From: Mycolicibacterium chubuense
GTDB lineage: Bacteria; Actinomycetota; Actinomycetes; Mycobacteriales; Mycobacteriaceae
DNA length: 33,786 nt
Assembly (NCBI RefSeq): GCF_001044255.1
Contig: NZ_JYNX01000017.1
Coordinates: forward strand, 1 to 33,786
Direction: 5' to 3'
Shown: positions 653-16,235 of the stretch, piece by piece
How positions within the stretch are numbered: position 1 is the first letter of the stretch
How the letters are laid out: each line of letters opens with the position of its first letter
The notes under the pieces: generated by a model
The model's input: only the letters and a program-made list of their open reading frames with translations
What the model was told of the DNA's origin: nothing
Databases searched by the model: none
Translations under genes and position numbers: made by a program

Positions 653-734
653 ACGTCGACCGTACCGGCTGGGGCAACCTCACGCCGCCAGCGGACGGGG
701 GCGTGCCGACCGCATCTGGCAGACTGTGGACTCC
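653..734. promoter_or_regulatory. Divergent promoter region between DUF6542 gene and ychF
   Basis: This 82-base gap separates two divergent starts, so both promoters must lie here or inside the 5' ends. No clear palindrome or convincing -10/-35 pair could be picked out by eye. Confidence 0.4.
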
Positions 735-1808
735 GTGGGCCTGAATCTGGGAATCGTCGGACTGCCGAATGTGGGCAAGTCGACCTTGTTCAACGCGCTG
801 ACGCGCAACGACGTGCTGGCCGCCAACTACCCGTTCGCGACGATCGAACCGAACGAGGGCGTGGTGGCGCTCCCGGATCCGCGCCTCGACAAGCTGGCCG
901 AGATGTTCGGCTCGGAGAAGACCGTGCCGGCGCCGGTGACGTTCGTCGACATCGCCGGCATCGTCAAGGGCGCGTCCGAGGGGGCCGGGCTGGGCAACAA
1001 GTTCCTGGCCAACATCCGCGAGAGCGATGCGATCTGTCAGGTGGTGCGCGTCTTCGCCGACGACGACGTGGTGCACGTCGACGGGCGGGTCGACCCGAAG
1101 TCCGACATCGAGATCATCGAGACCGAACTCATCCTGGCCGATATGCAGACCCTCGAGCGCGCGCTGCCGCGGCTGGAGAAGGAGGCCCGCACGCACAAAG
1201 ACCGCAAGCCGGTCCACGAGGCGGCGGTCGCGGCGCAGGAGGTGCTCGACAGCGGCAAGACCTTGTTCTCGGCGGGTGTGGACGTGACGTTGCTGCGCGA
1301 GCTGAACCTGATGACGTCCAAACCTTTCCTGTACGTGTTCAATGCCGACGAGTCGGTGCTCACCGATGCGGCGCGCGTCGCGGAGTTGCGCGAGTTGGTG
1401 GCGCCCGCCGACGCGGTGTTCCTCGACGCGAAGATCGAGGCCGAGTTGCAGGAGCTCGACGAGGAGTCGGCGGCCGAACTGCTGGAATCGATCGGGCAGA
1501 CCGAGCGGGGCCTGGATGCGTTGGCGCGGGCCGGTTTTCACACGCTGAAGCTGCAGACGTATCTGACGGCCGGCCCGAAAGAGGCGCGGGCGTGGACGAT
1601 TCACCAGGGCGACACCGCGCCGAAGGCGGCCGGGGTCATCCACTCCGACTTCGAGAAGGGCTTCATCAAGGCCGAGATCGTGTCCTTCGACGACCTGATG
1701 GAGGCCGGCTCGATGGCCGCCGCGAAGGCGGCCGGCAAGGTCCGTATGGAGGGCAAGGACTACGTGATGGCCGACGGCGACGTGGTGGAGTTCCGCTTCA
1801 ACGTGTAG
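735..1808 (+). CDS. ychF: Ribosome-binding ATPase YchF (Obg-family GTPase fold)
   Basis: YchF is a universally conserved P-loop NTPase of the Obg/OLA1 group that binds ribosomes and prefers ATP. The protein starts LGIVGLPNVGKSTLFNAL, giving the G1 loop GLPNVGKST near residues 8-16. A G2-like TIEPNEG follows, then the G3 motif DIAGIVKGASEG and a NADE motif in the G4 position. The C-terminal TGS domain ends EFRFNV, the family's normal end. GTG at 735 gives 357 residues, the usual mycobacterial length; GTG 726 would add three. The gene is divergent from the DUF6542 gene, the usual mycobacterial arrangement. Its last 30 bases recur downstream at 3385-3414, so the 3' end may be an integration site. 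Confidence 0.95.
   Translation: MGLNLGIVGLPNVGKSTLFNALTRNDVLAANYPFATIEPNEGVVALPDPRLDKLAEMFGSEKTVPAPVTFVDIAGIVKGASEGAGLGNKFLANIRESDAICQVVRVFADDDVVHVDGRVDPKSDIEIIETELILADMQTLERALPRLEKEARTHKDRKPVHEAAVAAQEVLDSGKTLFSAGVDVTLLRELNLMTSKPFLYVFNADESVLTDAARVAELRELVAPADAVFLDAKIEAELQELDEESAAELLESIGQTERGLDALARAGFHTLKLQTYLTAGPKEARAWTIHQGDTAPKAAGVIHSDFEKGFIKAEIVSFDDLMEAGSMAAAKAAGKVRMEGKDYVMADGDVVEFRFNV
1779..1808 (+). repeat. att-like repeat copy A (3' end of ychF)
   Basis: These last 30 bases of ychF (GACGTGG...GTGTAG, encoding DVVEFRFNV and stop) are matched at 26 of 30 positions without gaps by 3385-3414. They are matched more loosely, with one inserted base, by 7436-7466. Gene 3' ends are common integration targets because the incoming element can restore the reading frame. 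Confidence 0.5.
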
Positions 1809-1931
1809 GCCTGGACACGTCGTTTCGAGATTGCGGTGAGGGCTGTGAACCCGGGGGAGTTCACGACCACGGACGCGATATCGGCGAAGAACGGCTCAGA
1901 GCAGCGGCGCCACGGGGTGTCGGCTGGTCTA

Positions 1932-2576
1932 ATGAGCAGCATGCCGATCGCGGACCGTGCGCTTGCCGGGCTGGCTCGCCAGCTCGGTGAACCGAGCGGG
2001 TTCGCCGGCCGGATCGTCGGACGGCTCCTCAACCGGGGCAATCGCTCGATCGTCGCCGCCGCGGTCGCCGCGGCCGCGTGCAGGCCGGCTGCCGAAGTCG
2101 CCGACATCGGATTCGGGGGAGGCGTCGGACTCGGCATTCTGCTCGACAGCGACGCCGCAGTCGTACACGGCGTCGAGATGTCGGAGACGATGCTCACCGG
2201 GGCCAAGCGCCGGTTCGCCGACAGCATCGCCCGCGGGCGGTTACGCCTTCATTCCGGTCGGATGGAGAGCTTGCCTCTCGACGATTCCGCACTGGACGCG
2301 ATCATTTCGACGAACACGATCTACTTCGTTCCCGACCTGCTCGCAGCGCTGCGTGAATTCGCGCGTGTCCTTCGCCCGGGCGGGCGCCTGGTTCTCGGGG
2401 TCGGCGATCCGAGTCAGATGTCGAAGATGCCCTTCACTCGTCACGGGTTTCGGCTGCGCCCTGTCGACGAATTGCTGCCGGTCATTCGCGAGGCGGGCTT
2501 CGGCAAGACCGAGGACAGGCGCATCGGTGACGGTGATGGCGCCTTCCATCTTCTGGTGTGCGATCTGCCGGGCTGA
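1932..2576 (+). CDS. Class I SAM-dependent methyltransferase
   Basis: This is a Rossmann-fold methyltransferase of the Methyltransf_11 type; the substrate is not recognisable. Motif I is ADIGFGGGVG (about residues 57-66), the acidic end of strand 2 is GVEMSE, and the motif II/III region reads LDAIISTNTIYFVPDL followed by LRPGGRLVLG. ATG 1932 gives 214 residues and starts MSSMPIADRALAGLARQ. ATG 1941 is possible, and GTG 1836 would give 246 residues but adds an N-terminus unlike a methyltransferase. No strong Shine-Dalgarno sequence decides between them. The gene lies between two copies of the ychF-end repeat, so it may belong to an inserted segment. Confidence 0.8.
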   Translation: MSSMPIADRALAGLARQLGEPSGFAGRIVGRLLNRGNRSIVAAAVAAAACRPAAEVADIGFGGGVGLGILLDSDAAVVHGVEMSETMLTGAKRRFADSIARGRLRLHSGRMESLPLDDSALDAIISTNTIYFVPDLLAALREFARVLRPGGRLVLGVGDPSQMSKMPFTRHGFRLRPVDELLPVIREAGFGKTEDRRIGDGDGAFHLLVCDLPG

Positions 2577-2703
2577 CGTCGCGACTGCCGATCGCCCCAT
2601 GTGCACGGAGAGATGTTCATCGTGGAGTTCCGGTTCCAAGAGCGCCTGGGCAGGGTCGGATTCGCCCACGCGGCGAATGGGATCTCACTGGTAGCCTGAT
2701 CCC

Positions 2704-2943
2704 ATGGAAGCTGTCATCGATTCCGGCGGCCGAATCGTCCTGCCCAAGCAGCTGCGCGACGCACTGGGGCTGACCCCTGGATCAAAGGTGGACGTCTCGG
2801 CATACGGCGGTGGATTGCAGATCACCCCCGGCGGCAGGACTGCTCGGGTCGAGCGAGATGCCAACGGACGTCTGATAGCCCGCGCAGACACTGAAGTCAG
2901 CGACGAGATGATGTTCGCGCTGATCGACTCGGGACGACGTTGA
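2704..2943 (+). CDS. VapB-type antitoxin, AbrB/MazE-like DNA-binding fold
   Basis: This 79-residue protein begins with a swapped-hairpin AbrB domain: IDSGGRIVLPKQLRDALGL followed by GSKVDV and GGLQI. This is the typical operator-binding half of a VapB antitoxin. The C-terminal 35 residues are polar and would wrap the toxin. The stop overlaps the start of the PIN-domain gene (bases 2940-2943), the classic antitoxin-toxin arrangement with translational coupling. The antitoxin-toxin complex would be expected to repress its own promoter in the 127-base gap upstream. A VapBC pair downstream of ychF recalls VapBC32 of M. tuberculosis, but orthology was not tested, so no symbol is given. Confidence 0.87.
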   Translation: MEAVIDSGGRIVLPKQLRDALGLTPGSKVDVSAYGGGLQITPGGRTARVERDANGRLIARADTEVSDEMMFALIDSGRR

Positions 2944-3368
2944 CGGCGGTGTCCGTGACGGCGGTCGACACCAGCGTCGCCGTGCCGCTGGTGATGGCGT
3001 CGCACCGGCACCACGCGATGGTCGCTGCGTGGGCCGAGAGCCGAACACTGGGTCTTTGTGGGCACGCCCTGGCGGAGACGTACTCGGTCCTCACCCGGCT
3101 GCCCGGCGACGCTCGCGTAGCTGCTGCCGATGCGGTGACGTTGATCGATGGGAACTTCGCCGTGTCGTTGCAGCTCGGTGCGCGTGCCTCGCGATCCGCA
3201 CATCGCGAGTTCGCCCGGCGAGGTATCGCGGGAGGTGCGACATACGACGCTTTGGTCGCGTTTGCAGCGCGCGAGCATGGCGTTGCCTTGGCAACGAGGG
3301 ACGGCCGTGCCAGGTCCACCTACGAGGCGTTGGGTGTTGTCACCGAGGTGCTCGCGGCTGGTTCATGA
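2940..3368 (+). CDS. VapC-type PIN-domain ribonuclease toxin
   Basis: PIN-domain toxins are Mg2+-dependent ribonucleases that cleave tRNA or rRNA when freed from VapB. The four acidic residues expected of the active site are present: D10 in AVDTSVA, E46 in LAETYSVL, D103 in ATYDALVA and D121 in TRDGRA (counted from TTG 2940). The length of 142 residues, or 137-139 from the later GTG starts at 2949 or 2955, is normal. TTG 2940 overlaps the antitoxin stop; GTG 2955 (VTAVDTS) is an equally good biological start. No frameshift or loss of key residues is seen, so the toxin looks intact. Confidence 0.87.
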   Translation: MTAVSVTAVDTSVAVPLVMASHRHHAMVAAWAESRTLGLCGHALAETYSVLTRLPGDARVAAADAVTLIDGNFAVSLQLGARASRSAHREFARRGIAGGATYDALVAFAAREHGVALATRDGRARSTYEALGVVTEVLAAGS

Positions 3369-3384
3369 TGTTGTTTGACGCTGG

Positions 3385-3414
3385 GACGTCGTGAGGTTCC
3401 GCTTCTACGTGTAG
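3385..3414 (+). repeat. att-like repeat copy B (displaced ychF 3' end)
   Basis: This 30-base segment matches the end of ychF at 26 of 30 positions without gaps, and still reads DVVRFRFYV-stop in the same frame. The core GTTCCGCTTC plus ACGTGTAG is shared. The bases just upstream (TGATG...GACG) also resemble the ychF sequence before the repeat, suggesting a slightly longer decayed duplicate. It lies about 110 bases from the catalytic tyrosine codon of the dead integrase, a normal integrase-to-att distance. Confidence 0.55.
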
Positions 3415-3439
3415 AGGCCGAGCTCAGCAGCCGTTTGTT

Positions 3440-3880
3440 GGCTGTCCGTCCGTAGGTTTCATCGAGGCCTGAAACAGGCTCGCAGCAGCATTCCGTTCGG
3501 TCGTCAGCGTCAGGCCACAGGTGCGCGTACGTGTTCAGGGTGACGCTCGGTGACGAGTGCGCTGAGTGCTCGGTGAACCGTCACCACGTCGCAGTTCTCG
3601 CTAATGAGTCCAGAGGCGTAGAAGTGCCGGAGATCGTGGAGCACATAGTCAACGCCCGCACCTTTTCGAGCTCCACGCCATAGGTAGCCGACCGAGTTCT
3701 GGTGCAGGGGGTGCTCGCCTTGACCGGGGAACACCCACCGGTCTGGGTTGTTGTCGGGCAGGTGAAGCACTTCGTCTGGCACGTGAACGGTTCGCACTGA
3801 TTCGTACTCGGGAGAGCGGATCTCGATAGCGCCGCCATCGGCCCGCTGAACCTGCCGCTCGCGGCGCGGGAGGCCCGTCG
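3440..3880 (-). pseudogene. Tyrosine recombinase (phage integrase) C-terminal remnant, frameshifted
   Basis: Read leftwards from about 3880, the minus strand encodes the C-terminal half of a phage-type integrase. It runs VQRADGGAIEIRSPEYES, RTVHVPDEVL, HQNSVGYLWR, then the HxxR box VLHDLRHFYASGL, then DVVTVHRAL. At about 3560 one extra base throws the frame. In the next frame the sequence continues SHSSPSVTLNTYAHLWPDADDRT, which carries the catalytic tyrosine (codon at 3529-3527). The N-terminal arm-binding and core domains and the first catalytic arginine are absent; the fragment stops where it meets a resolvase remnant on the other strand near 3865. It is therefore doubly dead. It was probably the integrase of an element using the adjacent ychF-end repeat. 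Confidence 0.85.
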
Positions 3881-4062
3881 GGCGCGCGGGCAGTCTATTG
3901 GACGGCCTAAGGCGCTGGATGCGTCGAAGAGTGCGCTGGCGCAAAGGATGGGCGCGAGCGGAGAATCGGCCGCTACCATCGCGGCGACCCTCGGCGTGAG
4001 CCGAGCAACGGTCTACCGCGTACTGGCCGCTCGCGACGGCGACCAACCGCAACCCGGTGGTG
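3862..4062 (+). pseudogene. Serine recombinase (resolvase/invertase) C-terminal remnant
   Basis: The plus strand reads AAREARRARGQSIGRPKAL, then a polar linker, then AATIAATLGVSRATVYRVLA. This is the hinge and Hin-type helix-turn-helix (HTH_7) that end resolvase/invertase proteins. The catalytic domain with its serine is missing; upstream the plus strand is simply the antisense of the integrase remnant. The two fragments meet near 3865, so a rearrangement fused them. The frame stays open to 4196, but the family-like sequence ends soon after the helix-turn-helix, near 4035-4062. An ATG at 3948 could still express a bare DNA-binding domain of about 35-80 residues, which I consider unlikely to matter. 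Confidence 0.75.
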
Positions 4063-4137
4063 GTCCACCGTGCGCCGTCCACTCGCTACGCGCATTCGGG
4101 CTTTCGGTGTGTGGCCTCAAGCCGCCAAAATGTTCGT

Positions 4138-5502
4138 GTGTCCACAGATCAGCTAGATGTGAAGCGCGAGGCGATGCTGCATTCCCGTGCTGTTGAGGCA
4201 GTGATTTGGGGGATGCCCGTCGTGAACTTCCAACGCATGTTCCAGGCGTTCGTCGAGGCGGTCGGCGGCGGAGCCAACGAAGTCCTCTTCTGGTCGCACC
4301 TGCCCGATTGGCGAAACCAGACGTTGACCCCGAACCCCGACACGATCTACTTCATGCCCTTCTTCGACACAACGAGGGGCCCGGTGGTCGTTGAGATACC
4401 CAGAGCCGACGGAGGGTCGATAACCGGCTCATTGATGGATGCGTGGCAGTGCGCTCTGGAAGATGTCGGCCGCGCGGGTGTCGATCAGGGAAAGGGCGGC
4501 CGCTATCTGATCCTGCCGCCCGACTACTCACAACCCATTCCTGAGGGCTACATCGCGTTGCACTGCGACACATTTCGCGGGTATGGGTTATGCCGTTCGA
4601 ACGTGGTCAGCAGCAGCGCAGACGATGTCGCCGAGGCTGTGGCGTATGGAAAGCAAATCAAGCTGTATCCGCTGAATGAGGCGGACCGACCGCAGGCCAC
4701 GGCTTTTCGTGATGCCGGCGACGTTGTCCTGGACAGCCTAATCCCCTTTGATGCAAGGTTTTTCGACTCGTTGAACACAGCCATCCAGAGCGAGCCGTGG
4801 CTGATCCGGGACAAGGCGATGATTCACCAACTCGCATCCCTGGGCATTGGTAAGGGCCTCACGTTTGACCCAGATGAGCCGACGACCGGGATTCTGACAT
4901 CAGCAGCAGAGGACGCTCGCGTGTTGCTCGATGGCCGGTACGCATCGCTGTTCGCGCCGCCCTATTTCTCTCACACCAGGTGGGCTGTTCCCATACCGGC
5001 GGACGTGATCCATGGACAACAGAGCTTCTACGAGGACGCCGATTGCTACCCGGTCGATGACCGTGCCGTCATGTTCAGCATCGGCTTTTTCAGTGCCAAG
5101 CGGCTAGGCAGTGGTCAGTTCTACCTCATGACGATCACCGACAACAGCGGAGAGCAGATGATGGGAGCCAAGTCGTACCGACTCAGAGTTCCACCCCGCG
5201 CACCGGTGACGTTGTACTGGTCCGCAACCGCTTATGACCGTCGCACGCACGGACTCATACTCGGTATGCCGCGCGCTAGCCGCGCGTCCAATTCCGCTGA
5301 CCTCGAAGCGAACAGCGACGACTCCGTTGATGTCTACTTCGGCCCTCAGCCGCCCGAGGGTAAAGAGCCGAACTGGATACCGACTGACCCCAACAGCCAC
5401 TTCGAAGTCCTCTTCCGCTTCTACGGCCCTACCCAACCCCTGTTCGACAAGACCTGGCAGCTGCCCGACATCGAACCTGTCGAACCTTCACCCACGATAT
5501 GA
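4138..5502 (+). CDS. DUF1254/DUF1214 domain protein
   Basis: A protein of 454 residues with an N-terminal DUF1254 region (about 10-160, with WGMPVVNFQRM, NQTLTPNPDTIYFM and the later YLILPPDY) and a C-terminal DUF1214 region (about 320-445, with FYLMTITDNSG, KSYRLRVP and the typical end FEVLFRFYGP). The biochemical role of the family is not established. No signal peptide is visible, whereas many relatives are exported. GTG 4138 was chosen because residues further upstream (from 4057) read through the resolvase remnant; GTG 4159 is possible. It lies 174 bases before a sulfatase gene in the same direction, a pairing that suggests a joint role in handling a sulfated or aromatic compound. GC content is lower than in neighbouring core genes, fitting transfer. 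Confidence 0.85.
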   Translation: MSTDQLDVKREAMLHSRAVEAVIWGMPVVNFQRMFQAFVEAVGGGANEVLFWSHLPDWRNQTLTPNPDTIYFMPFFDTTRGPVVVEIPRADGGSITGSLMDAWQCALEDVGRAGVDQGKGGRYLILPPDYSQPIPEGYIALHCDTFRGYGLCRSNVVSSSADDVAEAVAYGKQIKLYPLNEADRPQATAFRDAGDVVLDSLIPFDARFFDSLNTAIQSEPWLIRDKAMIHQLASLGIGKGLTFDPDEPTTGILTSAAEDARVLLDGRYASLFAPPYFSHTRWAVPIPADVIHGQQSFYEDADCYPVDDRAVMFSIGFFSAKRLGSGQFYLMTITDNSGEQMMGAKSYRLRVPPRAPVTLYWSATAYDRRTHGLILGMPRASRASNSADLEANSDDSVDVYFGPQPPEGKEPNWIPTDPNSHFEVLFRFYGPTQPLFDKTWQLPDIEPVEPSPTI

Positions 5503-5676
5503 ATTTTGCAGACACCCAACGCAGCCCCGTCCGATGCCCGAGCGTCAACCGGCCACCAGTCGCTCGACCACGCGAAGGCGGCCTCGGAGGTTGAGCCGGG
5601 CAACAGTCTGTCGGGTCATTGCTGCTAGTGCCGTCAACACCTAGCGTGGTCGCGGTCACCATGGTTCAGTGATGTG

Positions 5677-7218
5677 ATGCCTGAACCTAAACCGAATATT
5701 CTGGTGATCTGGGGCGATGACATCGGGATCGCCAATTTGAGTTGCTACAGCCAAGGACTGATGGGCTACCGTACGCCCAACATCGACCGCATAGCCCGCG
5801 AAGGGATGCTGTTCACCGATTCGTACGGTGAGCAAAGCTGCACCGCGGGAAGGGCTGCCTTCATTAGTGGGCAAAGTGTGTACCGGACAGGGATGAGCAA
5901 AGTTGGGGCACCCGGATCGACAATTGGCTGGGCCGCCGAAGATCCCACCATTGCAGAACTACTCAAGCCCCTTGGCTATGCGACTGGGCAGTTCGGCAAG
6001 AATCACTTCGGAGACCTCAACGAGTACCTTCCGACCGTCCACGGATTCGACGAGTTCTTCGGCAACCTCTACCACCTCAACGCCGAGGAAGAGCCGGAGA
6101 ACATCGACTATCCGCACAAGGACAAGTTTCCCCGCCTCTACGACCTTGCCCGTCCACGAGGCGTCATCCATAGTTGGGCGACCGAGGCAGTCTCCACCGA
6201 GCCTGACGACCCCAAATGGGGTCCGGTCGGCAAGCAGCGCATCGACGACACCGGGCCGCTGGACAAGAAGCGCATGGAGACCATCGACGACGAAACAACC
6301 GCAGCCTGTGTCGATTTCATCCAACGACAACACCAGGCGAACACGCCCTTCTTCGTCTGGATGAACATGACCCACATGCATCTCTACACCCATCCCAAGC
6401 CAGAAAGCATTGGGCAAGCGGGACTGTGGCAGTCCGAATACCACGACACCATGATCGACCACGACAAACTCGTCGGCGTCCTGCTGGACACCCTCGACGA
6501 ACTCGGTATCGCCGAGAACACCATCGTCATCTACTCCACCGACAACGGACCGCACGGCAATACCTGGCCCGACGCGGGAACCACGCCATTCCGTAGTGAG
6601 AAAGACACCAACTGGGAAGGCGCATTCCGAGTACCGGAGCTGATCCGCTGGCCCGGCAAAATACTCGCCGGCGTGGTGTCCAATGAGATCGTCCAACACC
6701 ACGACTGGCTCCCCACGTTACTGGCCGCCGCGGGAGAACCCGACATCAGTGACAGGCTCAAGCAGGGTTACCAGGCCGGGGACAAACACTTCAAGGTCCA
6801 CATCGACGGCTTCAATCTGGTGCCATATCTGACAGGTGAGGTCACTACCAGTCCGCGCCGCGGATTCATCTACTTCTCGGATGACGGTGATGTCCTGGGA
6901 CTCCGGTTCGAGAACTGGAAGATCGTGTTCCAGGAACAACGCTGCCCCGGCACACTACAAATCTGGGCCGAACCCTTCGTCCCCCTGCGGCTACCCAAGC
7001 TCTTCAACCTGCGCACCGATCCCTACGAGCGAGCCGACATCACCTCCAACACCTACTACGACTGGATGCTTCGACGCGGCTACCTAGTCATGTACGGCTC
7101 AGCCATCTGCACGCAATTCCTCGAAACGTTCAAGCAGTTCCCGCCACGACACGAGCCAGCCAGCTTCACCATCAACCACGCAGTCGAAAAGCTCCACGCC
7201 TTCCTCGCAAAGGACTGA
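5677..7218 (+). CDS. Type I (formylglycine) sulfatase, arylsulfatase family
   Basis: Sulfatases of this group hydrolyse sulfate esters with a formylglycine made from cysteine. The start NILVIWGDDIG carries the paired Asp metal ligands (residues 14-15). The modification motif is SCTAGR, with Cys55 and Arg59: a C-x-A-x-R variant of the usual C-x-P-x-R. GKNHFGD (Lys108, His110) and TDNGPHGNTWPDAG followed by WEGAFRVPELIRWPG complete the active-site pattern. The 513-residue length is normal. No signal peptide is seen, so it is probably cytoplasmic. ATG 5677 is preferred; GTG 5674 adds one residue. The formylglycine-generating enzyme is not in this window. A hairpin right after the stop may end the transcript. 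Confidence 0.92.
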   Translation: MPEPKPNILVIWGDDIGIANLSCYSQGLMGYRTPNIDRIAREGMLFTDSYGEQSCTAGRAAFISGQSVYRTGMSKVGAPGSTIGWAAEDPTIAELLKPLGYATGQFGKNHFGDLNEYLPTVHGFDEFFGNLYHLNAEEEPENIDYPHKDKFPRLYDLARPRGVIHSWATEAVSTEPDDPKWGPVGKQRIDDTGPLDKKRMETIDDETTAACVDFIQRQHQANTPFFVWMNMTHMHLYTHPKPESIGQAGLWQSEYHDTMIDHDKLVGVLLDTLDELGIAENTIVIYSTDNGPHGNTWPDAGTTPFRSEKDTNWEGAFRVPELIRWPGKILAGVVSNEIVQHHDWLPTLLAAAGEPDISDRLKQGYQAGDKHFKVHIDGFNLVPYLTGEVTTSPRRGFIYFSDDGDVLGLRFENWKIVFQEQRCPGTLQIWAEPFVPLRLPKLFNLRTDPYERADITSNTYYDWMLRRGYLVMYGSAICTQFLETFKQFPPRHEPASFTINHAVEKLHAFLAKD

Positions 7219-7221
7219 CCA

Positions 7222-7257
7222 CTGACCCAGTCCTCCTCCACCAGGTGGGTGGGTCAG
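7222..7257 (+). terminator. Candidate hairpin terminator after the sulfatase gene
   Basis: Four bases after the sulfatase stop, CTGACCCA (7222-7229) pairs perfectly with TGGGTCAG (7250-7257). An inner stem CCACC-A-GGTGG sits inside the loop. There is no T tract, as is common in actinobacterial terminators. Confidence 0.5.
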
Positions 7258-7435
7258 CTCAAGCTGAGCGACCAGGTCTGTCGAGGCCGAATCACACGCA
7301 CGCCACGCGGTGTCGAGATACGCCTGACACGGCCAACGGCTGCGCTCTCTCCGATCGCCGCGTCCGCATCGCCGAGATCGTTCGCGCCACGCTCGAGTAA
7401 CCGATCCATGCCCGCGGCCGGTTGTTCGGACCGGC

Positions 7436-7466
7436 GACGCGGTGGACTTTCCGCTTCGACGTCTGG
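7436..7466 (+). repeat. att-like repeat copy C (weak)
   Basis: About 25 of 30 bases match the ychF 3' end (GACG, GGTGGA, CCGCTTC and ACGT blocks) with one inserted T. It lies in non-coding DNA past the sulfatase gene, where the right end of an island would be expected. The match is weaker than copy B and could be chance. Confidence 0.3.
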
Positions 7467-7584: not shown

Positions 7585-8331
7585 GTGAGCTTCGTCGTCC
7601 CGCCGGAGGCCTACGCGCGTTTCATGGGCCGGTATGCCGAGCCCCTCGCGGAGGTGTTCGCGGCGTTTGCCGGCGTCGGAGCCGGCGACAAGGTGCTCGA
7701 CGTGGGCTGTGGGCCGGGCGCGCTGACGGCACACTTGCTCTCGGCGGGAGCCGAGGTCGCGGCGATCGATCCTTCACCACCGTTCGTCGACGCGATCCGT
7801 GTGCGCTTCCCCGGCGTCGACGTGCGTCGAGGTACGGCGGAGGAACTGCCCTATGACAGCGACGCTTTCGACGCGGCCCTGGCGCAATTGGTGGTGCACT
7901 TCATGACGGATCCGGTAGGCGGCGTCAGACAGATGGCGCGCGTGACTCGCGGTGGCGGTGTCGTCGCGGCTTGCGTGTGGGACGGGCCGACCGGTGCACT
8001 CGCACCGTTCTGGGATGCGGTTCACGCGATCGCCCCTGACGTCGAGGATGAAGCGCTGCTGTCCGGGGCGCACAAGGGGCACCTGACTGAGCTGTTCGAA
8101 ACTGCCGGCCTGCGCGATGTGGAGGAAGATTCCCTTGCGGTCGATGTCGTGCATCCGGCGTTCGAGGAGTGGTGGGAGCCGTACACGTTCGGTGTCGGTC
8201 CTGCCGGTGACTACGTCCGGCGACTCGATGACAAGGGTCGCGCCCGTCTCGAGTCAGCGGCTCGCGAACGGCTCGGTGACGGGCCGTTCACTGTCACCGC
8301 TGCCGCCTGGGCCGCCCGCGGAACGGTGTGA
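7585..8331 (+). CDS. Class I SAM-dependent methyltransferase
   Basis: 248 residues. Motif I is VLDVGCGPGALT (residues 37-48), strand 2 ends AAIDPSP, and the post-I region reads GTAEELPYDSDAFDAAL, followed by MARVTRGGGVVAA. This is the Methyltransf_11/UbiE-like layout seen in many actinobacterial small-molecule methyltransferases. The start is GTG 7585 (VSFVVPPEAYARFMGRYAEPLA), the usual N-terminus for the group. The substrate is unknown. The gene converges on the MarR gene; a short stem (CCACC-CGT-GGTGG, 8334-8346) just after its stop may help termination. Higher GC than the sulfatase suggests return to core-type DNA. Confidence 0.85.
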   Translation: MSFVVPPEAYARFMGRYAEPLAEVFAAFAGVGAGDKVLDVGCGPGALTAHLLSAGAEVAAIDPSPPFVDAIRVRFPGVDVRRGTAEELPYDSDAFDAALAQLVVHFMTDPVGGVRQMARVTRGGGVVAACVWDGPTGALAPFWDAVHAIAPDVEDEALLSGAHKGHLTELFETAGLRDVEEDSLAVDVVHPAFEEWWEPYTFGVGPAGDYVRRLDDKGRARLESAARERLGDGPFTVTAAAWAARGTV

Positions 8332-8405
8332 TGCCACCCGTGGTGGGGTTTCGGTTCACACTCTGACCGTCTTGAGGTGATGCCGACGTCGTCAGCGGCC
8401 GGCGC

Positions 8406-8870
8406 CTAGCGTCGCGCGTCGGCAGGCTCCAGCGTGTCCAGCAGTTCCTGCAGGACCGCGCAGGCCGCCTGGAATCTGTCGGCTCCGACGATGTCCGCCC
8501 ATCGGGCCTCGATTTCGGCGACGCGTCCGCCGGCGTCCCGCATCAACTGCTCTCCGCGCGCGGTGAGCACGACAAGCTTTGCGCGGCCGTCGCTGGGGTC
8601 GGCACGACGTGCGAGATATCCGAACGACTCCAGTTCGTTCACCAGTTCCGACGTCGCCGACAGGCTGAGTTGTGCCCGCGCGGCGATCTCGGTCAGCCGA
8701 ACATGTCCGGTCCGAATGGCGCCGAAGACATGCATGTGGGCATCTCGCACGTCTCCGTAACCGCGCTCCGTGCGCGGAGCCGCAAGCTCGGCCCTGAACT
8801 GTCGGAGCAGGCGCACGAGCAGCTGTCCGATCGCTTGCCGCTCGGTGGGGAGATCCCTTGACATGGCCAT
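8406..8870 (-). CDS. MarR-family transcriptional regulator
   Basis: 154 residues from ATG 8870 (ATG 8864 would remove two). The winged helix-turn-helix spans about residues 30-105: HMHVFGAIRTGHVRLTEIA, then LSLSATSELVNELESFGYL as the recognition helix, then the wing RRADPSDGRAKLVVLTARG. The flanking N- and C-terminal helices form the dimer interface. MarR proteins usually repress their own gene and a divergent neighbour and release DNA on binding a small ligand. The neighbour here is an alpha/beta-hydrolase-fold gene, and the 62-base space between contains two overlapping palindromes that fit a MarR dimer. Confidence 0.9.
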   Translation of the reverse strand: MAMSRDLPTERQAIGQLLVRLLRQFRAELAAPRTERGYGDVRDAHMHVFGAIRTGHVRLTEIAARAQLSLSATSELVNELESFGYLARRADPSDGRAKLVVLTARGEQLMRDAGGRVAEIEARWADIVGADRFQAACAVLQELLDTLEPADARR

Positions 8871-9739: not shown

Positions 9740-9888
9740 CTGTCAACGAGTCTCTCTCTCAACGGCTTTCCTGATGGTGGTCACCGACGACGCCGTTGTG
9801 CAGTCCCGCCACAGGCAAGGGATGTGCTCGAGGTCGGGGGCTCGGCGGAAGCCGCGCACATCCAGCGCCATCGGTGGGAAACTGTCCT

Positions 9889-10662
9889 ATGCCCTCCGAC
9901 AAGTCCCCACTTGTCCTCCTGCATGGGCTTGCCATGACAGGCCGGGCATGGCGCGATGTCGTTCCTCTCGTGTGCGGCCATCACGAGACGTATCTACCTA
10001 CCGCGCCCGGCCACCGTGGCGGCCCGGCGGTGCATCGGCGCCCGGCAACGATGACCGACATGGTCGATGCGGCCGAGCGGTACCTGGACGAGTGTGCCCT
10101 TGATCGCCCCCATCTGGCCGGCAATTCGATGGGCGGATTCGTGGCCATCGAGCTGGCCCGGCGCGGTCGTGCAGCGACGGTATGCGCGTTCTCGCCGGGC
10201 GGATTCTGGACGTCCGGCGACGGCTTCCAGCAGCGCGCGTTCGGCAGACTGCAGCGCGGTGTCGCGCTCGGTCGTTTCACGCGTCCACTCCTGCCCGTGA
10301 TCTACAGGTCCTCGACGTTGCGTCGGATCATCCTGCGCGACGTGGCTTTCCGTGCGGACCGGATCTCAGCGACCCGGGCTCTCGAGTTCATCGACGACGG
10401 AATCGGTTGCGCCGTTCTCGCGGACCTGTGCGCCGCGGAGTGGCTCATCGAATACCTCGAGCCACCGCCTTGCCCCATCACCGTCGTCTGGGGGGAGAAG
10501 GAGACCTTGCTGCCGCCCGGAGTCCTCGACAGGGTCGAACGCATCCCGCAGGCGTCGGTGATCGTCCTACCGGACGTCGGTCACGTCCCCATGGTGGACG
10601 ACCCGCGATTGGTGGCTCGCACGATCCTGGCCCGTACGGGCGCCATCGCGGGCGACGACTGA
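9889..10662 (+). CDS. Alpha/beta hydrolase, catalytic residues intact
   Basis: 257 residues from ATG 9889. LLHGLAMTGRAW near the start forms the HG oxyanion loop, AGNSMGGFVA holds the nucleophile serine, WGEKETLLPP is in the acid position (glutamate rather than aspartate), and DVGHVPMVDDP carries the catalytic histidine. This is the esterase/lipase-like hydrolase pattern; the substrate is not evident. It follows the catalytically changed homolog in the same direction after 149 bases, so a shared transcript is possible but not certain. A long hairpin lies just after its stop, between it and the convergent PaaK-like gene. Confidence 0.85.
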   Translation: MPSDKSPLVLLHGLAMTGRAWRDVVPLVCGHHETYLPTAPGHRGGPAVHRRPATMTDMVDAAERYLDECALDRPHLAGNSMGGFVAIELARRGRAATVCAFSPGGFWTSGDGFQQRAFGRLQRGVALGRFTRPLLPVIYRSSTLRRIILRDVAFRADRISATRALEFIDDGIGCAVLADLCAAEWLIEYLEPPPCPITVVWGEKETLLPPGVLDRVERIPQASVIVLPDVGHVPMVDDPRLVARTILARTGAIAGDD

Positions 10663-10685
10663 TCGCGACTCCGAGGTTTCGTCCT

Positions 10686-10775: not shown

Positions 10776-12173
10776 TCACGGCTGATGATCCTGGATTTCG
10801 GAGAACACCTGCCGGAACTTCCCGCTGCGTGGATGCAGGGTGGGTGGTTCGTCGGATCTCTCCACGGTGACGGTCGTCGCTCCCAGGGCCGACAAGTACT
10901 CGGTCAGGCGTCGAGACAACGACCCCCAGACCGCAGTTTCGTGGTCGGGGTCGATCGCACGCATACGCACGGTGAGCGTCGACGGCGTGCGCTGGATGAG
11001 CTGACAGCGTGCCAATCCCGGCGTCTCCTCGGCGACGGTGGCGATGGCCAACGGAAGGACGCGGACCTCGCCGCCGCTCGGCGCCCGGAAGACGAGGACG
11101 TCATCGGTGCGACCGACGACGTCAATGACCGGGAACAAGCTGCCGCACGGACATGGGTCGCTCATCAGAGCCACCCGGTCGCCCAACTGGTAGCGGATCA
11201 CGGGTTGGATGCGATTGGCCAGATTGGTCACGAGCACGCCATCGGAGAGCCGGCCGGCCGGAACCGGCTGGTTGTGGTCGTCCACGGGTTCGACGATGTA
11301 CCAGTCGCTGTTGACGTGCAGTCGCTGTAGGGAGCATTCGAAGGTCAGACCGACTGCTTCGGACGAACCGTAGTAATTGCTGACCGGGCAGCCGAAGGCG
11401 GTACCGATCAATCGCCGCTGCGCGGCGGACAGTGTCTCGCCGGCGGCGGTGACCATGACGGGGTGGATCGTCAACGAACCCGCTTGCCGTTCCAGTGCCA
11501 GGGTTTCGAGTGCACTCGGGTAACCGGCCACCATGACGGGTGCGAACGCGTTGAGGTCGCGGACAAGTTCGTCGATGGGGGCCAGCGCGGAGAAGAGCCG
11601 CTGCGTCCTGCGGCGGAACCGCATCGTTCGCAGGCGCCGGGCCATCATGACGTTGCCCAGGTAGTGGCCGCCGCTGACCATGACCGCGGCCAGATGAAAA
11701 CGTCCGCGCACGAGCGCCCACAGCTGCCTCGGTGACAGCCGTACCGCGGGCAGGGAACGAACGTAGCCCAGCACGTTGTACACGGTGAGTGCAGACATGT
11801 CGTGCAGCAGGATCGCCGGAATGCCGGTCGCCCCCGATGTCGTGCACACCACGTAGCGACCGAGGAAGTCGCGACCGATGCTGCGCGGATCGGCGAGGAA
11901 GGCCTCGACCTCCGTTCGGGTCACCGACATATCGGTCACCCAATCGTCGAAGTGGGCCATCAGATCGGCCTTGGTGGTCACCGGCAGCTGGCCGATCTCC
12001 GAAATACGTTCGGGCACATCATGGTACAGACGGCCGTAGTAGCGCGAGTGAGTGCGCGCATAACCGGCGATGTCGTCGAGGCGCCGTTGTCGGCGCGCGG
12101 CGACAGCCGCCTGACCCTCCCGGGCCGCCCGGAACGTGTCCCAGAGGGCGGCGGGATAGGTCACCGTCTTCAC
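10776..12173 (-). CDS. PaaK/CapK-like adenylate-forming enzyme (AMP ligase family)
   Basis: 465 residues resembling phenylacetate-CoA ligase and coenzyme F390 synthetase. The phosphate loop is TTSGATGIP (111-119). YYGSSEAVGL is the adenine-binding motif, YQLGDRV the hinge-side Asp motif, and PCPCGSLFP with GRTDD the PaaK-type CxCG segment. The C-terminal lysine lies in RSGKFRQVF (Lys452). Such enzymes activate a carboxylate as an acyl-AMP and often pass it to CoA or another thiol; the acid is unknown here. GTG 12173 overlaps the stop of the upstream DUF523 gene by four bases (GTGA), so the two are translationally coupled. It is the last gene of a three-gene operon. Confidence 0.87.
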   Translation of the reverse strand: MKTVTYPAALWDTFRAAREGQAAVAARRQRRLDDIAGYARTHSRYYGRLYHDVPERISEIGQLPVTTKADLMAHFDDWVTDMSVTRTEVEAFLADPRSIGRDFLGRYVVCTTSGATGIPAILLHDMSALTVYNVLGYVRSLPAVRLSPRQLWALVRGRFHLAAVMVSGGHYLGNVMMARRLRTMRFRRRTQRLFSALAPIDELVRDLNAFAPVMVAGYPSALETLALERQAGSLTIHPVMVTAAGETLSAAQRRLIGTAFGCPVSNYYGSSEAVGLTFECSLQRLHVNSDWYIVEPVDDHNQPVPAGRLSDGVLVTNLANRIQPVIRYQLGDRVALMSDPCPCGSLFPVIDVVGRTDDVLVFRAPSGGEVRVLPLAIATVAEETPGLARCQLIQRTPSTLTVRMRAIDPDHETAVWGSLSRRLTEYLSALGATTVTVERSDEPPTLHPRSGKFRQVFSEIQDHQP

Positions 12174-12874
12174 GGCGGGGACTCGCCCAGAACCCGCCGC
12201 GGCGGTGTGGCGAGCAGGCCTTGATGCCGCCCGCTCAGCTCGGCGGCGAGGTCGTGTTCCCACGCGGGCACGACTTCTCGCCGGCGCCTGAGTTGCGCGT
12301 CGAGCGCTCTGACGAACAGGCCCATGCCCGGGCGGCGGCAGCCCAGTACGGCCCTCTCGTTCATGACCTCTCGAGTCAGCGCTGCCGTGGGGCATGATGC
12401 CAGGACCTCGAGGGCAGCCCGCATGTCGAGGGTGGTGGTCACCCCGCAGGAGGGCGACGCCCCGATGCCGATGACACCGGCGACCGTCATCCCGGAGCGG
12501 TGGTAGTCGGCGACGTCACGGGACACCTGCCGGGCGAGACGGCGGTAGATGACCTTGGTCCACAGCAGAAAAGCCCGTAACAGCAAGGCCCGCACCCGAT
12601 ACAGCGGGCGGCCCTTGGAATCGTGGAGAAGAAGGCTGTGTCGCTTGAGCGCGCCGCCCCAGGCCAGCCGTTCCGGGCAGGGCAGCTGGTGAATGCCGTA
12701 ACCGGAGGCCATCAGTTCGTCGATGGCTTCGGTCACCGCGCCGGACCGGGTGGCTCCGCCGGCGTACCGGGTGTTCTCGTTGAGCAGGCAATGTGACACG
12801 AGAACGACCCGGCGTCCGCGCTCATCGCGTAGCCGGTCCAGAGACAGTCGCGCGGTGTCCCGGGAATCCCGCAC
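12170..12874 (-). CDS. DUF523/TudS-like protein, probable [4Fe-4S] binder
   Basis: 234 residues. Three cysteines stand where the TudS (thiouracil desulfidase, DUF523) cluster ligands are expected: Cys29 in VSHCLLNENTRYAGG, Cys66 in LPCPERLAWGG and Cys143 in GASPSCGVTTT. TudS enzymes bind a [4Fe-4S] cluster with three protein ligands and move sulfur from thiouracils. The middle (about 92-130) is longer and more basic and hydrophobic than in small family members, so the substrate may differ. GTG 12874 starts six bases after the stop codon begins in the upstream small membrane protein gene. The stop overlaps the PaaK-like gene start, so all three genes appear to be one operon. Confidence 0.8.
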   Translation of the reverse strand: MRDSRDTARLSLDRLRDERGRRVVLVSHCLLNENTRYAGGATRSGAVTEAIDELMASGYGIHQLPCPERLAWGGALKRHSLLLHDSKGRPLYRVRALLLRAFLLWTKVIYRRLARQVSRDVADYHRSGMTVAGVIGIGASPSCGVTTTLDMRAALEVLASCPTAALTREVMNERAVLGCRRPGMGLFVRALDAQLRRRREVVPAWEHDLAAELSGRHQGLLATPPRRVLGESPP

Positions 12875-12877
12875 GGC

Positions 12878-13180
12878 TCAGCGGCCGACGAGATGCGGGT
12901 CGTTGGTCCCGGCGGCGGTCGCCGCGCCCTGCGTGACCGCGGAACTAGCCGGACGGTGTTGCAGCGCGGTTGGTTTCGCAAACCAGCCGAGGTATCCGAG
13001 GGTCAGACTGATCGCAGAGTAGACACCGGCCTCGGCCCACATGAACCCCACCCCCCAACGTCGGCCGAGGAAGACCGTCTTCCCGATCATCCCGCGGGAG
13101 GTGAGCACCGCATACAGGGCATGTGCATAAGCCAGTGCGGCGAACGCGCCCGAGAGGAACTTGTACGCTTCGCGCTTCAT
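12878..13180 (-). CDS. Small membrane protein, first gene of TudS-like/PaaK-like operon
   Basis: 100 residues from ATG 13180, preceded by the purine-rich GGGGAAAG, a plausible ribosome-binding site. Two hydrophobic segments, about residues 8-27 (FLSGAFAALAYAHALYAV) and 44-67 (VGFMWAEAGVYSAISLTLG), indicate two membrane spans. The C-terminal 30 residues are polar, rich in Ala, Thr and Ser. No family was recognised. Only three bases separate its stop from the next start, so it is cotranscribed with the DUF523-like and PaaK-like genes. It may localise them or transport their substrate, but that is only a guess. Confidence 0.75.
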   Translation of the reverse strand: MKREAYKFLSGAFAALAYAHALYAVLTSRGMIGKTVFLGRRWGVGFMWAEAGVYSAISLTLGYLGWFAKPTALQHRPASSAVTQGAATAAGTNDPHLVGR

Positions 13181-13293: not shown

Positions 13294-13788
13294 TCAGCGC
13301 GGACTGAGTCGCATGATCGGGATCTGCCGACCCGTCCCGGAGGTCTTCTCGCGGTAGTCGTCGTACCCCGGGTACACCTTCTCGGCCAGCGCGAAGAGGC
13401 GGGCGTACTCGTCGGGGTCGGTGACCTCGGTGGCCGTGAACGGCTCGTCGCCGAACTCGCACTCCGGATGCGCGGTCAGGTTGAAGTACCACGACGGGTG
13501 CCGGCGCTTGCCGTAGTTCGACGCGATCAGGATCACGTCGGATCCGTCGTGGAAGTACGTCAACTGGGTCTGGCGCCGCTGGCCCGACTTCGCGCCGGTC
13601 GACACCAGCGGCGCGTTGATGATCGGCCCCATGTTGACCCGGCCACCCGTCAACCGGAACAGGTAGGGGTCGGTGCGGCGCGCGACGTGCCGTGCGAACA
13701 ACTGCCCGATCGGTGACCGGCCGAACTGCACACCGCGCTGGTAGGAGCGGCCGCGATGGCGGTTCGGGTCGACATAGCGAAGGGGCAT
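13294..13788 (-). CDS. Ddn-type F420(H2)-dependent oxidoreductase (nitroreductase/deazaflavin family)
   Basis: 164 residues. The split-barrel signature of the mycobacterial Ddn/FDOR-A group is present: PLVSTGAKSGQRRQTQL, then VILIASNYGKRRHPSWYFNL, then HPECEF. The segment TGAKSG...R is the F420 phosphate-binding region and PSWYFNL is characteristic of the group. Members reduce quinones or other acceptors with F420H2. The C-terminus PGYDDYREKTSGTGRQIPIMRL is complete. The gene stands 113 bases upstream of the small membrane protein gene in the same direction, so it may be on the same transcript or have its own. The start at ATG 13788 is clear. Confidence 0.9.
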   Translation of the reverse strand: MPLRYVDPNRHRGRSYQRGVQFGRSPIGQLFARHVARRTDPYLFRLTGGRVNMGPIINAPLVSTGAKSGQRRQTQLTYFHDGSDVILIASNYGKRRHPSWYFNLTAHPECEFGDEPFTATEVTDPDEYARLFALAEKVYPGYDDYREKTSGTGRQIPIMRLSPR

Positions 13789-13811
13789 ACCGGCAAGCTA
13801 CCCGAGCCCGC

Positions 13812-14030
13812 TCAGCGGTAACCGCGCCGGCGAGCGCCCACCAGGCGGTGCGCAGAGCGGTGCAACTGGCTGGCCGCCACCAACGCGACCAGTGTGACCG
13901 CCTGGCGGGCCAGAGCTGGCCTCTGGATGCGTTGCTGCCAGGTCGGCGTCCGCCGGTTGGCGCGACGCCCCACGAGGTAGCCCAGCAGCCCGGACGCCGC
14001 CATCAGGGAGATCACCACGACGGCTGCCAT
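13812..14030 (-). CDS. Small membrane-anchored protein
   Basis: 72 residues from ATG 14030. An N-terminal hydrophobic helix (VVVISLMAASGLLGYLVG) is followed by a very basic stretch (RRANRRTPTWQQR), a second moderately hydrophobic segment (AVTLVALVAASQL) and an arginine-rich end. It reads like a real, conserved small actinobacterial protein with the basic side in the cytoplasm. Function unknown. It lies 23 bases upstream of the Ddn-like gene in the same direction and is probably cotranscribed with it. Confidence 0.65.
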   Translation of the reverse strand: MAAVVVISLMAASGLLGYLVGRRANRRTPTWQQRIQRPALARQAVTLVALVAASQLHRSAHRLVGARRRGYR

Positions 14031-14093
14031 GAGGTTCGAGCCTGCCCCACGGGGGTCGCGGTCAGGTCACGAACGCGCCACACCTGAACGGCC

Positions 14094-14125
14094 GATGGCC
14101 GCCTGGATTTCTCCAGACGGCCATC
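14094..14125 (-). terminator. Strong hairpin with GAAA loop after the secreted-protein gene
   Basis: Arms 14094-14107 and 14112-14125 pair over 14 bases. On the minus-strand transcript the single mismatch becomes a G-U wobble and the four-base loop reads GAAA, a GNRA tetraloop. It starts 13 bases after the stop of the gene ending at 14139, the place for an intrinsic terminator. No clear U tract follows. Confidence 0.7.
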
Positions 14126-14138
14126 GACGCGGACGAAC

Positions 14139-14504: not shown

Positions 14505-14622
14505 GAACCCTCCTCAGAGTCGCTGTTCAACGCGCCGGTCGCCATGAATGGTGGCCCCGGCCGGAAACGACCCCCCGTACCGGGTCTCAGAGTAACCACA
14601 AAATAAAGCGACCAAACGCTCC

Positions 14623-15540: not shown

Positions 15541-15563
15541 GGCGCAGCGCCAGGACGTCCGGC

Positions 15564-16139: not shown

Positions 16140-16235
16140 GCCTGCGCTCCCTCGTTGCACGTGTGCTCGCCACCAGCAAAGCACTGCCGGTGCGGGAAAG
16201 CCGGTATCCGGATCGGCGTTTCGCGCAGCGGTCGG

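Follow-up and report, generated by a model that had tools for sequence, protein, structure and literature searches.

Genes and repeated sites behind ychF in the window

The window, the whole stretch of 33,786 nucleotides of Mycolicibacterium chubuense DNA that was analysed, carries ychF on the plus strand at positions 726 to 1808, as located by gene calling and tblastn. The gene ends in FNV-stop, and we propose its 3' end as the attB. Further along this strand, Pfam identified a methyltransferase gene (unit 1, 1941 to 2576), a MazE-type antitoxin gene with a PIN toxin gene (unit 2, 2704 to 3368; 2704 to 2943 and 2940 to 3368, respectively), a DUF1254/DUF1214 gene with a sulfatase gene (unit 3, 4213 to 7218; 4213 to 5502 and 5674 to 7218, respectively) and a second methyltransferase gene (unit 4, 7585 to 8331). 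The family labels DUF1801 and, for one family, PIN are putative. A preliminary description of this DNA had proposed accessory genes of partly lower GC content here, and both points held: the GC content is 58 to 60% across approximately 4.5 to 7.25 kb, including unit 3, versus 62 to 70% over most of the rest of the first 12 kb.

A broken tyrosine-integrase remnant (3510 to 3850, minus strand) and a resolvase-type helix-turn-helix fragment (3861 to 4060, plus strand; PF02796, 2.4e-10) lie between units 2 and 3. A homologue of positions 9871 to 10669 (plus strand) forms the first unit after ychF in another locus, L049 (+22 to +820), and no site was seen in the sequence inspected at the end of this last shared segment (10670). 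The conserved backbone past the variable region, at 13294 to 16308, is 87.7% identical to L049 over the stretch. A tRNA gene as the integration target was rejected, since ARAGORN found none in the window.

In L038 a relative of unit 1 follows ychF, and L049 has one at +1084; both homologies end at window position 2622. Unit 2 has a counterpart in a homologous segment of L055 (+1752 to +2431), and in L133 the first unit has a DUF1254/DUF1214 gene as its only called gene. Segments homologous to unit 4 in L035, L038, L049 and L054 all stop at the gene end.

The end of ychF (site A, 1767 to 1808) is repeated in site B (3367 to 3414), both on the plus strand. Positions 1779 to 1808 and 3385 to 3414 are identical at 26 of 30 bases without gaps, and the similarity ends at both edges of the repeat. 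The second-best ungapped match to A in the whole window, on either strand, reached 20 of 30, in agreement with the repeat described previously. Sites were scored in bits with a 26-base motif made from 107 FNV-type ychF ends. The best scores in the window were 47.8 for A, 24.4 for B, 13.2 for site D (at 8341) and 9.0 for site A' (at 2620), and the chance level, given by a minus-strand match, was 10.4. Judged by sequence alone, B thus stands out, unlike A' and D.

Site C (7418 to 7466, plus strand, centre 7442) is a decayed copy, in which positions 7436 to 7466 align to the ychF end with one base inserted; because of this base the ungapped motif score is low (-3.6). With A as the query, the gapped score was 18; no shuffle reached this value, either among 2,000 of the 366-base surroundings or among 300 of the 5.8-kb interval (best shuffle, 15), so that this copy, listed in the preliminary description as well, exceeds shuffled sequence. 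With B as the query, the score of 14 occurred in shuffles at frequencies of 0.004 (surroundings) and 0.04 (interval).

Two further weak copies on the plus strand were absent from the previous list, namely, A' (2606 to 2646, centre 2622), at the junction of unit 1 and the unit 2 VapBC pair, and D (8331 to 8366, centre 8343). Sites A', C and D are decayed or weak and by motif score alone are inseparable from chance in the window. Besides the score, A' coincides with a homology boundary, C has the gapped shuffle test and D has its position only.

Survey of ychF loci

The survey covered 136 loci, which are a non-random sample. Loci L032 to L051 were chosen for having several strict copies and L212 to L231 for a missing FNV pattern or a displaced end; L052 to L071 and L102 to L181 were taken among the matches listed, a few of them chosen for odd copies. 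At a threshold of at least 18 bits, 116 loci contained 65 copies of the ychF end downstream on the same strand and none in reverse orientation, upstream or in shuffled sequence. This count leaves out five loci without ychF (L067, L071, L108, L175 and L178), and the genomes were re-examined over a longer stretch. An earlier, smaller run at 12 bits gave 58 downstream copies versus 1 reverse, 1 upstream and 0 shuffled. Inner sites scoring 15 bits or more were present in 18 of the 77 usable loci of L102 to L181 and in 6 of the 18 usable loci of L052 to L071. The ychF-end repeat is real and far more general than the preliminary description had it.

The homology between close relatives ended at the ychF stop codon (-30 to +15) in 123 of 137 pairs, which are not independent because they were drawn from 71 loci. 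The gene after ychF belonged to the same family in 14 of the 137 close pairs, compared with 403 of 541 backbone neighbours, and among the closest pairs in 8 of 23, compared with 58 of 77. Variable DNA behind ychF had been predicted in the preliminary description and was found, rather than conserved synteny. L229 and L231 form a before-and-after pair, in which L231 has 868 bp extra with a relative of unit 4 as the sole gene called. The boundaries of 302 shared segments lay close to a core (80 bases or less) more frequently than random places did (starts, 45% versus 24%; ends, 34% versus 19%), which is supportive but loose. An age gradient along the array was dropped, as no fall of site quality with distance from ychF was found (rho, -0.10; P = 0.39).

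The copies of the ychF end are separated mostly by one- or two-gene units, with a median spacing of 809 bp, and the same units occur in different genomes at different positions in the array. Some unit genes were more alike than the ychF genes of their hosts, in 110 of 1,485 pairs for a glyoxalase, 34 of 325 for an Arr-type gene and 12 of 45 for methyltransferase 1. For comparison, this was the case for backbone genes in 26 of 6,105, 8 of 3,486 and 0 of 406 pairs. No excess identity was seen in a 120-aa family (0/435), a RibD-like family (0/66) or a SnoaL-like family (0/36). Several units were evidently transferred horizontally.

Half-sites and serine integrases

In 28 loci the DNA of ychF reads into an alternative tail. 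The core was kept, with AACGT placed 5 bp further out, in 21 of them. An FNV end was also found downstream of the alternative tail in 16 of the 28, and no FNV copy was found in the other 12. The downstream FNV end lay just 467 to 1,563 bp away, without a large serine integrase (LSI), in 11 of the 28 loci, and in 8 of these 11 the interval from ychF to the FNV end contained a single called gene. In the four RelBE units examined, the toxin stop codon lies 9 bp from the site centre. The FNV end, with two B-type arms (B/B'), stands at ychF itself in the window and in most arrays.

The site is proposed to be centred on GT in GACGTG-GT-GGAGTTCCG, with an outer motif, AACGTS, that would lie at offset 13 from the centre in B arms and at offset 18 in P arms. 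Of 78 inner sites, a count that excludes one overlapping site of L228, 17 have the P motif at offset 18 of the left arm and 56 the B' motif at offset 13 of the right arm; the P motif occupied that position in 6 of 2,000 randomly chosen places and in none of the 133 left arms at ychF. The outer motif is thus 5 bp closer to the centre in attB than in attP, and on the left it is exact in only 17 of the 78 inner sites. This offset test superseded a weak left-arm test with the strict motif, in which 79 sites fitted best at shift 0 in 27 cases, at shift 5 in 20 and at other shifts in 32; with a score threshold, 9 were left at shift 0 and none at shift 5. A displacement of this size between the outer motifs of attP and attB has been published for serine integrases (PMC3783163).

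In the window, site A has its proposed centre at 1785 to 1786 and AACGTG at offset 13, consistent with an attB (B/B'). Site B, around its centre at 3391, has the P motif AACATC at offset 18 on the left (P of approximately 0.0004 for a random 6-mer) and TACGTG at offset 13 on the right, and this arrangement (P/B') fits an attR. Site C is attR-like, with a weak P-like AACCGG at offset 18 (P of approximately 0.02), and offset 15 scores better. The P-like motif of A' is at offset 4, not 18, and the window sequence has none at offset 18 of site D.

The FNV end was displaced 3.7 to 17 kb downstream in five genomes, and four of these inserts carry an adjoining LSI. These four inserts are prophage-like, with the LSI beside the displaced ychF end, and the two LSIs scanned by Pfam both have PF00239 (Resolvase) and PF07508 (Recombinase). 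No LSI was found within 131 of the 136 ychF loci. Among the matches listed, 14 of 17 near-complete LSI homologues sharing 47% identity or more are preceded by the core, at a distance of 29 to 60 bp; the exceptions are L235 and L238, without a site, and L242, at a contig edge. The core was not found beside LSI homologues of less than 47% identity. Of 12 viral matches, two (contigs L262 and L263) have a symmetric attP, with paired P arms around the core, adjoining the integrase gene, and one has an attR-like site. From these positions and half-sites, the enzyme of the ychF-end sites is likely a large serine integrase.

Explanations of the arrays and related systems

It is quite probable that the ychF 3' end is the attB of an LSI family in Mycobacteriaceae, and probably in other actinomycetes, and that units without an integrase use it too, presumably in trans. 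LSI-bearing prophages would enter the ychF end, and small, mostly one- or two-gene units without an integrase would do likewise, presumably served by an LSI that a resident or visiting phage provides. Insertion would supply ychF with a P' arm and thereby swap its last codons, from FNV-stop to, for example, FGTTSTSKSKA-stop or HG-stop, and the old FNV end would be displaced downstream as attR. Successive insertions would build gene arrays with ychF-end copies as separators, a serine-integrase counterpart of integron cassettes. As part of this explanation, the window is best read as an array in decay, in the order ychF (A), methyltransferase, A', VapBC, B, DUF1254 and sulfatase, C, methyltransferase and D. 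The island attachment site suggested in the preliminary description stands in that the ychF 3' end appears to act as an attachment site with varying accessory DNA behind it; the single island is replaced by a series of units.

Several observations count against the LSI model, including the 131 of 136 loci in which no LSI was found, the close LSI homologues L235 and L238 and those of lower identity without the site, the 12 alternative-tail loci without an FNV copy, the site quality that does not fall along the arrays, the exact P motif in just 17 of 78 left arms and the unit families without excess identity. In addition, the B/B' form stands at ychF in most arrays, whereas one integration should leave B/P', and both L231 and A' of the window suggest insertion into a P'-type end. 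To our knowledge, serine integrases do not normally insert into such an end. A form of integron-like gene capture by a serine integrase in actinomycetes may account for this, and we advance it tentatively, as a little short of an even case. The ychF 3' end would be the fixed site, and one-gene circles, in which the gene end can double as a P arm, would be inserted in trans by LSI phages or satellites. A 5-bp change would turn the used P' into a B'-like target and restore FNV, and ychF may in this way keep or regain its FNV end in most arrays. Such a system would have evolved independently of integrons.

Alternatively, the small units could be leftovers of LSI prophages or satellites that inserted repeatedly at ychF and were reduced to a cargo gene and att ends. 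The full prophage-like inserts at the same site, an LSI fragment that remains beside site +4812 in L045 and the clear decay of the window units favour leftovers, but the presence of the same units at different array positions in different genomes, the exactly one gene in 8 of the 11 short alternative-tail units and the 9 bp between toxin stop and site centre in the four RelBE units examined do not. We consider leftovers a possible, though rather doubtful, origin of the units.

The preliminary description favoured an island at ychF whose tyrosine integrase survives as the window remnant. The remnant adjoining copy B is real though poor, scoring 26.4 bits against PF00589 (cut-off, 27.1) over profile positions 89 to 154 of 172, with a TYAHLW motif, read by eye in another frame, approximately 110 bases from B. 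Relatives of it were found in 18 of 118 genomes, among them G069 and G066; a fragment lies approximately 17 kb from ychF in G039 and a weak match approximately 2.4 kb from it in G045, but in G017 (a 416-aa frame) and G081 the relatives are on contigs other than that of ychF. In seven genomes of the genus (six with arrays and that of the window), PF00589 gave 66 matches, of which only the window remnant lies inside an array; G225 has two downstream of ychF, at distances of approximately 9 and 11 kb. No tyrosine recombinase was found inside the arrays of the six genomes other than that of the window, and instead of the tyrosine integrase expected at the repeated site in related genomes, a serine integrase with matching half-sites adjoins it. 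A tyrosine integrase was therefore rejected as the enzyme, the island is very unlikely, and the dead integrase of the window is, from its sequence and distribution, probably a bystander.

Homologous recombination or tandem duplication of the ychF end, without a site-specific enzyme, would be consistent with the few copies that reach further into ychF, e.g., at +5627 in L047. The typical identity of approximately 25 bases, the single breakpoint of homology, the P/B half-site geometry and the adjoining LSIs make it highly improbable. A genuine integron-like system, run by a tyrosine integrase encoded elsewhere in the genome and using hairpin sites of the attC type, would suit arrays of mostly one- or two-gene units and gene types typical of integron cassettes, but it is scarcely credible given the adjoining serine integrases and a complementarity at the copies no different from random (mean, 9.9 versus 9.6). 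The attC hairpin was rejected on the latter ground, and the inverted arm seen by eye is read as the paired P arms of an attP.

The system resembles the phage LSIs of Bxb1, phiRv1 and A118/LI in the Resolvase and Recombinase domains, the integrase gene beside attP and the 5-bp shift. It differs in that the target is the ychF 3' end, the core common to attP and attB is approximately 11 bp or more, the gene end is rewritten rather than disrupted and many integrase-less units appear to use the site. As in integrons, mostly one- or two-gene units mobile between genomes are stacked behind a fixed site, with a recombination site after each, but there is no hairpin attC, no tyrosine integrase in the arrays of the other six genomes examined (a remnant in the window), and the fixed site is in a housekeeping gene.

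The staphylococcal cassette chromosome (SCC) uses serine recombinases that target the 3' end of rlmH and has direct repeats at the junctions of stacked elements; its units are large and usually carry ccr genes. A serine recombinase, a housekeeping-gene 3' end and junction repeats are thus common to both, but the gene here is ychF and the median spacing of the units is 809 bp. CIMEs are integrase-less, att-flanked elements stacked by accretion and are mainly described as relics of tyrosine-integrase conjugative elements. The integrase-less elements between attL and attR in the 11 short alternative-tail loci are similar, but mostly have one gene and serine-type sites. The attB-8 prophage of M. 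abscessus likewise changes the end of a host protein gene by replacing its last codons, but that gene is MAB_2979 and the enzyme a tyrosine integrase (PMC8092301). A pneumococcal prophage between dnaN and ychF also adjoins ychF, but upstream, in its promoter region, at an unrelated 14-bp site (PMC6375853). No description of serine-integrase arrays at ychF was found in the literature searched, with supplementary tables, which may hold attB lists with ychF, outside its scope.

The DNA behind a nearly universal gene is likely a hot spot for the gain of genes throughout the genus, and probably beyond it, for which the likely enzyme can now be named and attB and attP given. A capture site at ychF would explain the toxin-antitoxin, glyoxalase and resistance-type genes (Arr, APH) behind mycobacterial ychF, and the ychF end as an apparent landing site would explain why the DNA behind the gene differs from species to species. 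The array would be integron-like and operate without a tyrosine recombinase or hairpin sites, and it makes the spread of integrase-less single genes and the building of arrays by serine integrases testable.

Copies of the ychF end and the insertion point

The preliminary description had proposed that the end of ychF (726-1808, plus strand) is repeated downstream. The copy at ychF itself (A, 1779-1808) and copy B (3385-3414) were identical at 26 of 30 positions, and the second-best ungapped match to A in the entire window reached 20 of 30. Copy C, which has one inserted base, scored 18 with A as the query; in 300 shuffles of the 5.8-kb interval no score was as high. Querying with B gave a weaker result (score 14, frequency 0.04). 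A motif built from 107 ychF ends of the FNV type (the usual C-terminal codons plus stop, the proposed attB) gave 47.8 bits for A, 24.4 for B, 13.2 for D (8341) and 9.0 for A' (2620), with 10.4 bits for the strongest minus-strand match. Copy B is firm and copy C fair, while A' and D need other support.

The strict ychF-end pattern matched in 255 of the 297 genomes of the genus, and 43 genomes carried two to four copies, on a single strand within each genome. When 116 ychF loci were oriented by tblastn, 65 matches of at least 18 bits were detected downstream on the same strand, from 43 loci. None reached this threshold on the reverse strand of these loci, in 285 kb upstream of ychF or after second-order shuffling of the 1.58 Mb. 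Two copies on one strand were present in 17 of 230 genomes from other genera of the family (8 genera), 0.6 to 4 kb apart among the matches listed. A class-wide survey of 246 genomes added G538, G637, G663 and G696 from other families, with copies within 0.35 to 6.1 kb, and G691 with two copies; the two copies in G595, G609 and G720 were of another kind or were split between contigs. In G454 and its relatives in the family survey, ychF ends in FKFNV, with AAG or AAA in the second copy too, as if the repeat followed the host's own ychF sequence.

Variable DNA had been predicted after ychF, with conserved synteny as the opposing outcome. In 137 pairs from 71 loci (ychF at least 90% identical), homology broke between -30 and +15 bases from the ychF stop in 123. 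Neighbouring genes were also compared, since intergenic DNA diverges anyway: the first gene belonged to the same family in only 14 of the 137 pairs, and the right-hand neighbour of nine backbone families was the same in 403 of 541. For pairs of at least 94%, the values were 8/23 after ychF versus 58/77 for the backbone. Beyond the variable stretch, a gene conserved in 111 of 136 loci started between +592 and +12,438 behind ychF. Loci L229 and L231 (ychF 96.4% identical) form a natural before-and-after pair, in which L231 carries an additional 868 bp containing a gene related to the window's second methyltransferase, followed by a repeat of the former ychF tail. The homology breaks and changing neighbours mark the ychF 3' end as an insertion point.

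Large serine integrases and half-site geometry

The ychF end was searched for in 47 genomes, of which 42 had no strict FNV match and 5 a displaced copy, and located in 44. A different tail with an unchanged core was found in 28 of the 30 ends read. These alternative tails occurred in 28 of 136 loci, with AACGT 5 bp further out in 21. In five genomes the FNV end lay 3.7 to 17 kb downstream. A look for intact integrases beside a ychF-end duplicate had been suggested. Four of these five inserts were prophage-like, with a large serine integrase (LSI) adjoining the displaced end; the fifth (L214) had no LSI. A profile of the four LSIs recovered 29 loci from the genome collection. The ychF core lay 29 to 60 bp upstream of the match start in 14 of 17 near-complete homologues of at least 47% identity. 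Two of the 14 (L233 and L236) are apparently the same records as G213 and G035 and so not independent of the four; L240 and L241 are two copies on one record. Close homologues L235 and L238 lacked the site, and L242 was at a contig edge. Outside the 17 were L252 (a 64% fragment) and 11 more distant homologues without the site. LSIs were present at 5 of the 136 loci, in L045 as a fragment next to site +4812. Locus L045 (G225) also has two adjacent tyrosine recombinases (PF00589 matches) about +9.2 to +11.7 kb behind ychF, which look like a separate element of transposon type.

Among 12 viral LSI matches, inverted arms flanked the core in L262 and L263 (GTTTATCG...CGATAAAC and GCCTATCG...CGATAGGC), an arrangement that, judged from sequence, is a putative attP. 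L261 had an attR-like site, and nine distant matches had no site. The P motif stood 18 from the central GT on both sides in L262 and L263; of 105 FNV ychF ends, 100 had theirs at offset 13 on the right. This is the 5-bp attP/attB motif shift already described for serine integrases in sections of PMC3783163. At inner sites, downstream of ychF, the left arm had the P motif at offset 18 in 17 of 78 cases, compared with 6 of 2000 random places, and in 14 of 74 when RelBE units were removed because their toxin codons coincide with the motif; on the right, the B' motif was at offset 13 in 56 of 78. Copy B of the window, with AACATC at 18 and TACGTG at 13, fits a predicted attR.

In the RelBE units of L042, L043, L059 and L032, the last toxin codons, RRDVYR-stop (RRDLYR in L032), overlap the P-arm motif, and the stop is 9 bp from the site centre. 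Two tandem cores about 23 to 30 bp apart were seen at L041 (+636/+660), L228 (+518/+548), L045 (+643), L049 (+1006) and L053 (+1433) and at the ychF ends of L059, L063, L104 and L144, looking like sites left behind by an empty or lost unit. At +5627 of L047 (G181) a longer ychF 3' piece is repeated, with at least about 40 bases more than the usual 25-base copies.

Content and origin of the units

Neighbouring sites lay a median of 809 bp apart over 75 intervals; of 72 intervals, 53 held one or two called genes. Where a plus-strand gene ended within 300 bases (49 of 76 sites), the median distance to the site centre was 32 bases. Families that recurred behind ychF were glyoxalase (55 loci), Arr-type (26), a Phd/YefM antitoxin paired with a RelE-like toxin (19), a family that we take to be DUF1801-like (16), two methyltransferase families (found in 14 and 10 loci) and, in 12 loci, a RibD/DHFR-like protein. 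The array position of recurrent families differed between genomes. Species pairs in which the unit gene exceeded ychF in identity served as a transfer test, giving 110/1485 for glyoxalase, 34/325 for Arr-type, 9/171 for RelB, 23/120 and 24/45 for DUF1801-like and 12/45 and 3/91 for the methyltransferases; backbone genes gave 26/6105, 8/3486 and 0/406. Three families had no excess (120-aa 0/435, RibD-like 0/66, SnoaL-like 0/36). The single gene of the first unit of L047 (+8 to +953) matches the abortive-infection family AbiTii (PF18864), so phage defence genes may use the ychF site.

In the window, the accessory genes named in the preliminary description were all recovered by Pfam (two methyltransferases, MazE plus PIN, DUF1254/DUF1214 and sulfatase), the tyrosine-integrase remnant as a match below the cut-off; a resolvase HTH fragment was found as well. 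Relatives of unit 1 occur in L038 and L049, with homology ending at A'; the VapBC pair has one in L055, and those of unit 4 are found in L035, L038, L049 and L054. Positions 9871-10669 correspond to the unit that directly follows ychF in L049. The stretch from D to the backbone contains a MarR-type regulator (Pfam) and several genes on the minus strand (8406-8870, 10776-13180).

In 11 of the 28 alternative-tail loci, the FNV end was just 467 to 1563 bp downstream, with no LSI; 12 of the 28 had no FNV copy within the stretch read. Eight of the 11 short units held a single called gene, for example a glyoxalase in the 518-bp unit of L228 and a SnoaL-like gene in the 467-bp unit of L160; two genes were called in L176, three in L223 and none in L049. 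An LSI acting in trans on a minimal circle would leave such units. Mobile one-gene units seem a likelier account of them than remnants of decayed prophages. Not everything fits such insertion, the scarcity of LSIs and the 12 loci with no FNV copy included. Most arrays have the FNV end at ychF itself, versus the P' tail expected from one insertion. Behind several FNV-ended ychF genes comes P'-like sequence that lacks the 5 bp, hence ychF may regain its FNV end by a short deletion, or else by recombination with a strain carrying no insert. In L231 and at window copy A', insertion seems to have gone into a P'-type end. Site quality showed no gradient.

Attachment by LSIs is a known kind of system, and so is the stacking of elements that lack an integrase, as in SCC and CIME. 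A full-text literature search (supplementary tables aside) returned neither an actinomycete ychF attachment site nor a serine-integrase cassette array, and neither appears in the sections covered of the mycobacterial prophage surveys PMC10654092 and PMC8092301. The pneumococcal prophage described in part of PMC6375853 sits on the upstream side of ychF, which differs from insertion behind it. The combination of known parts and its breadth appear to be new.
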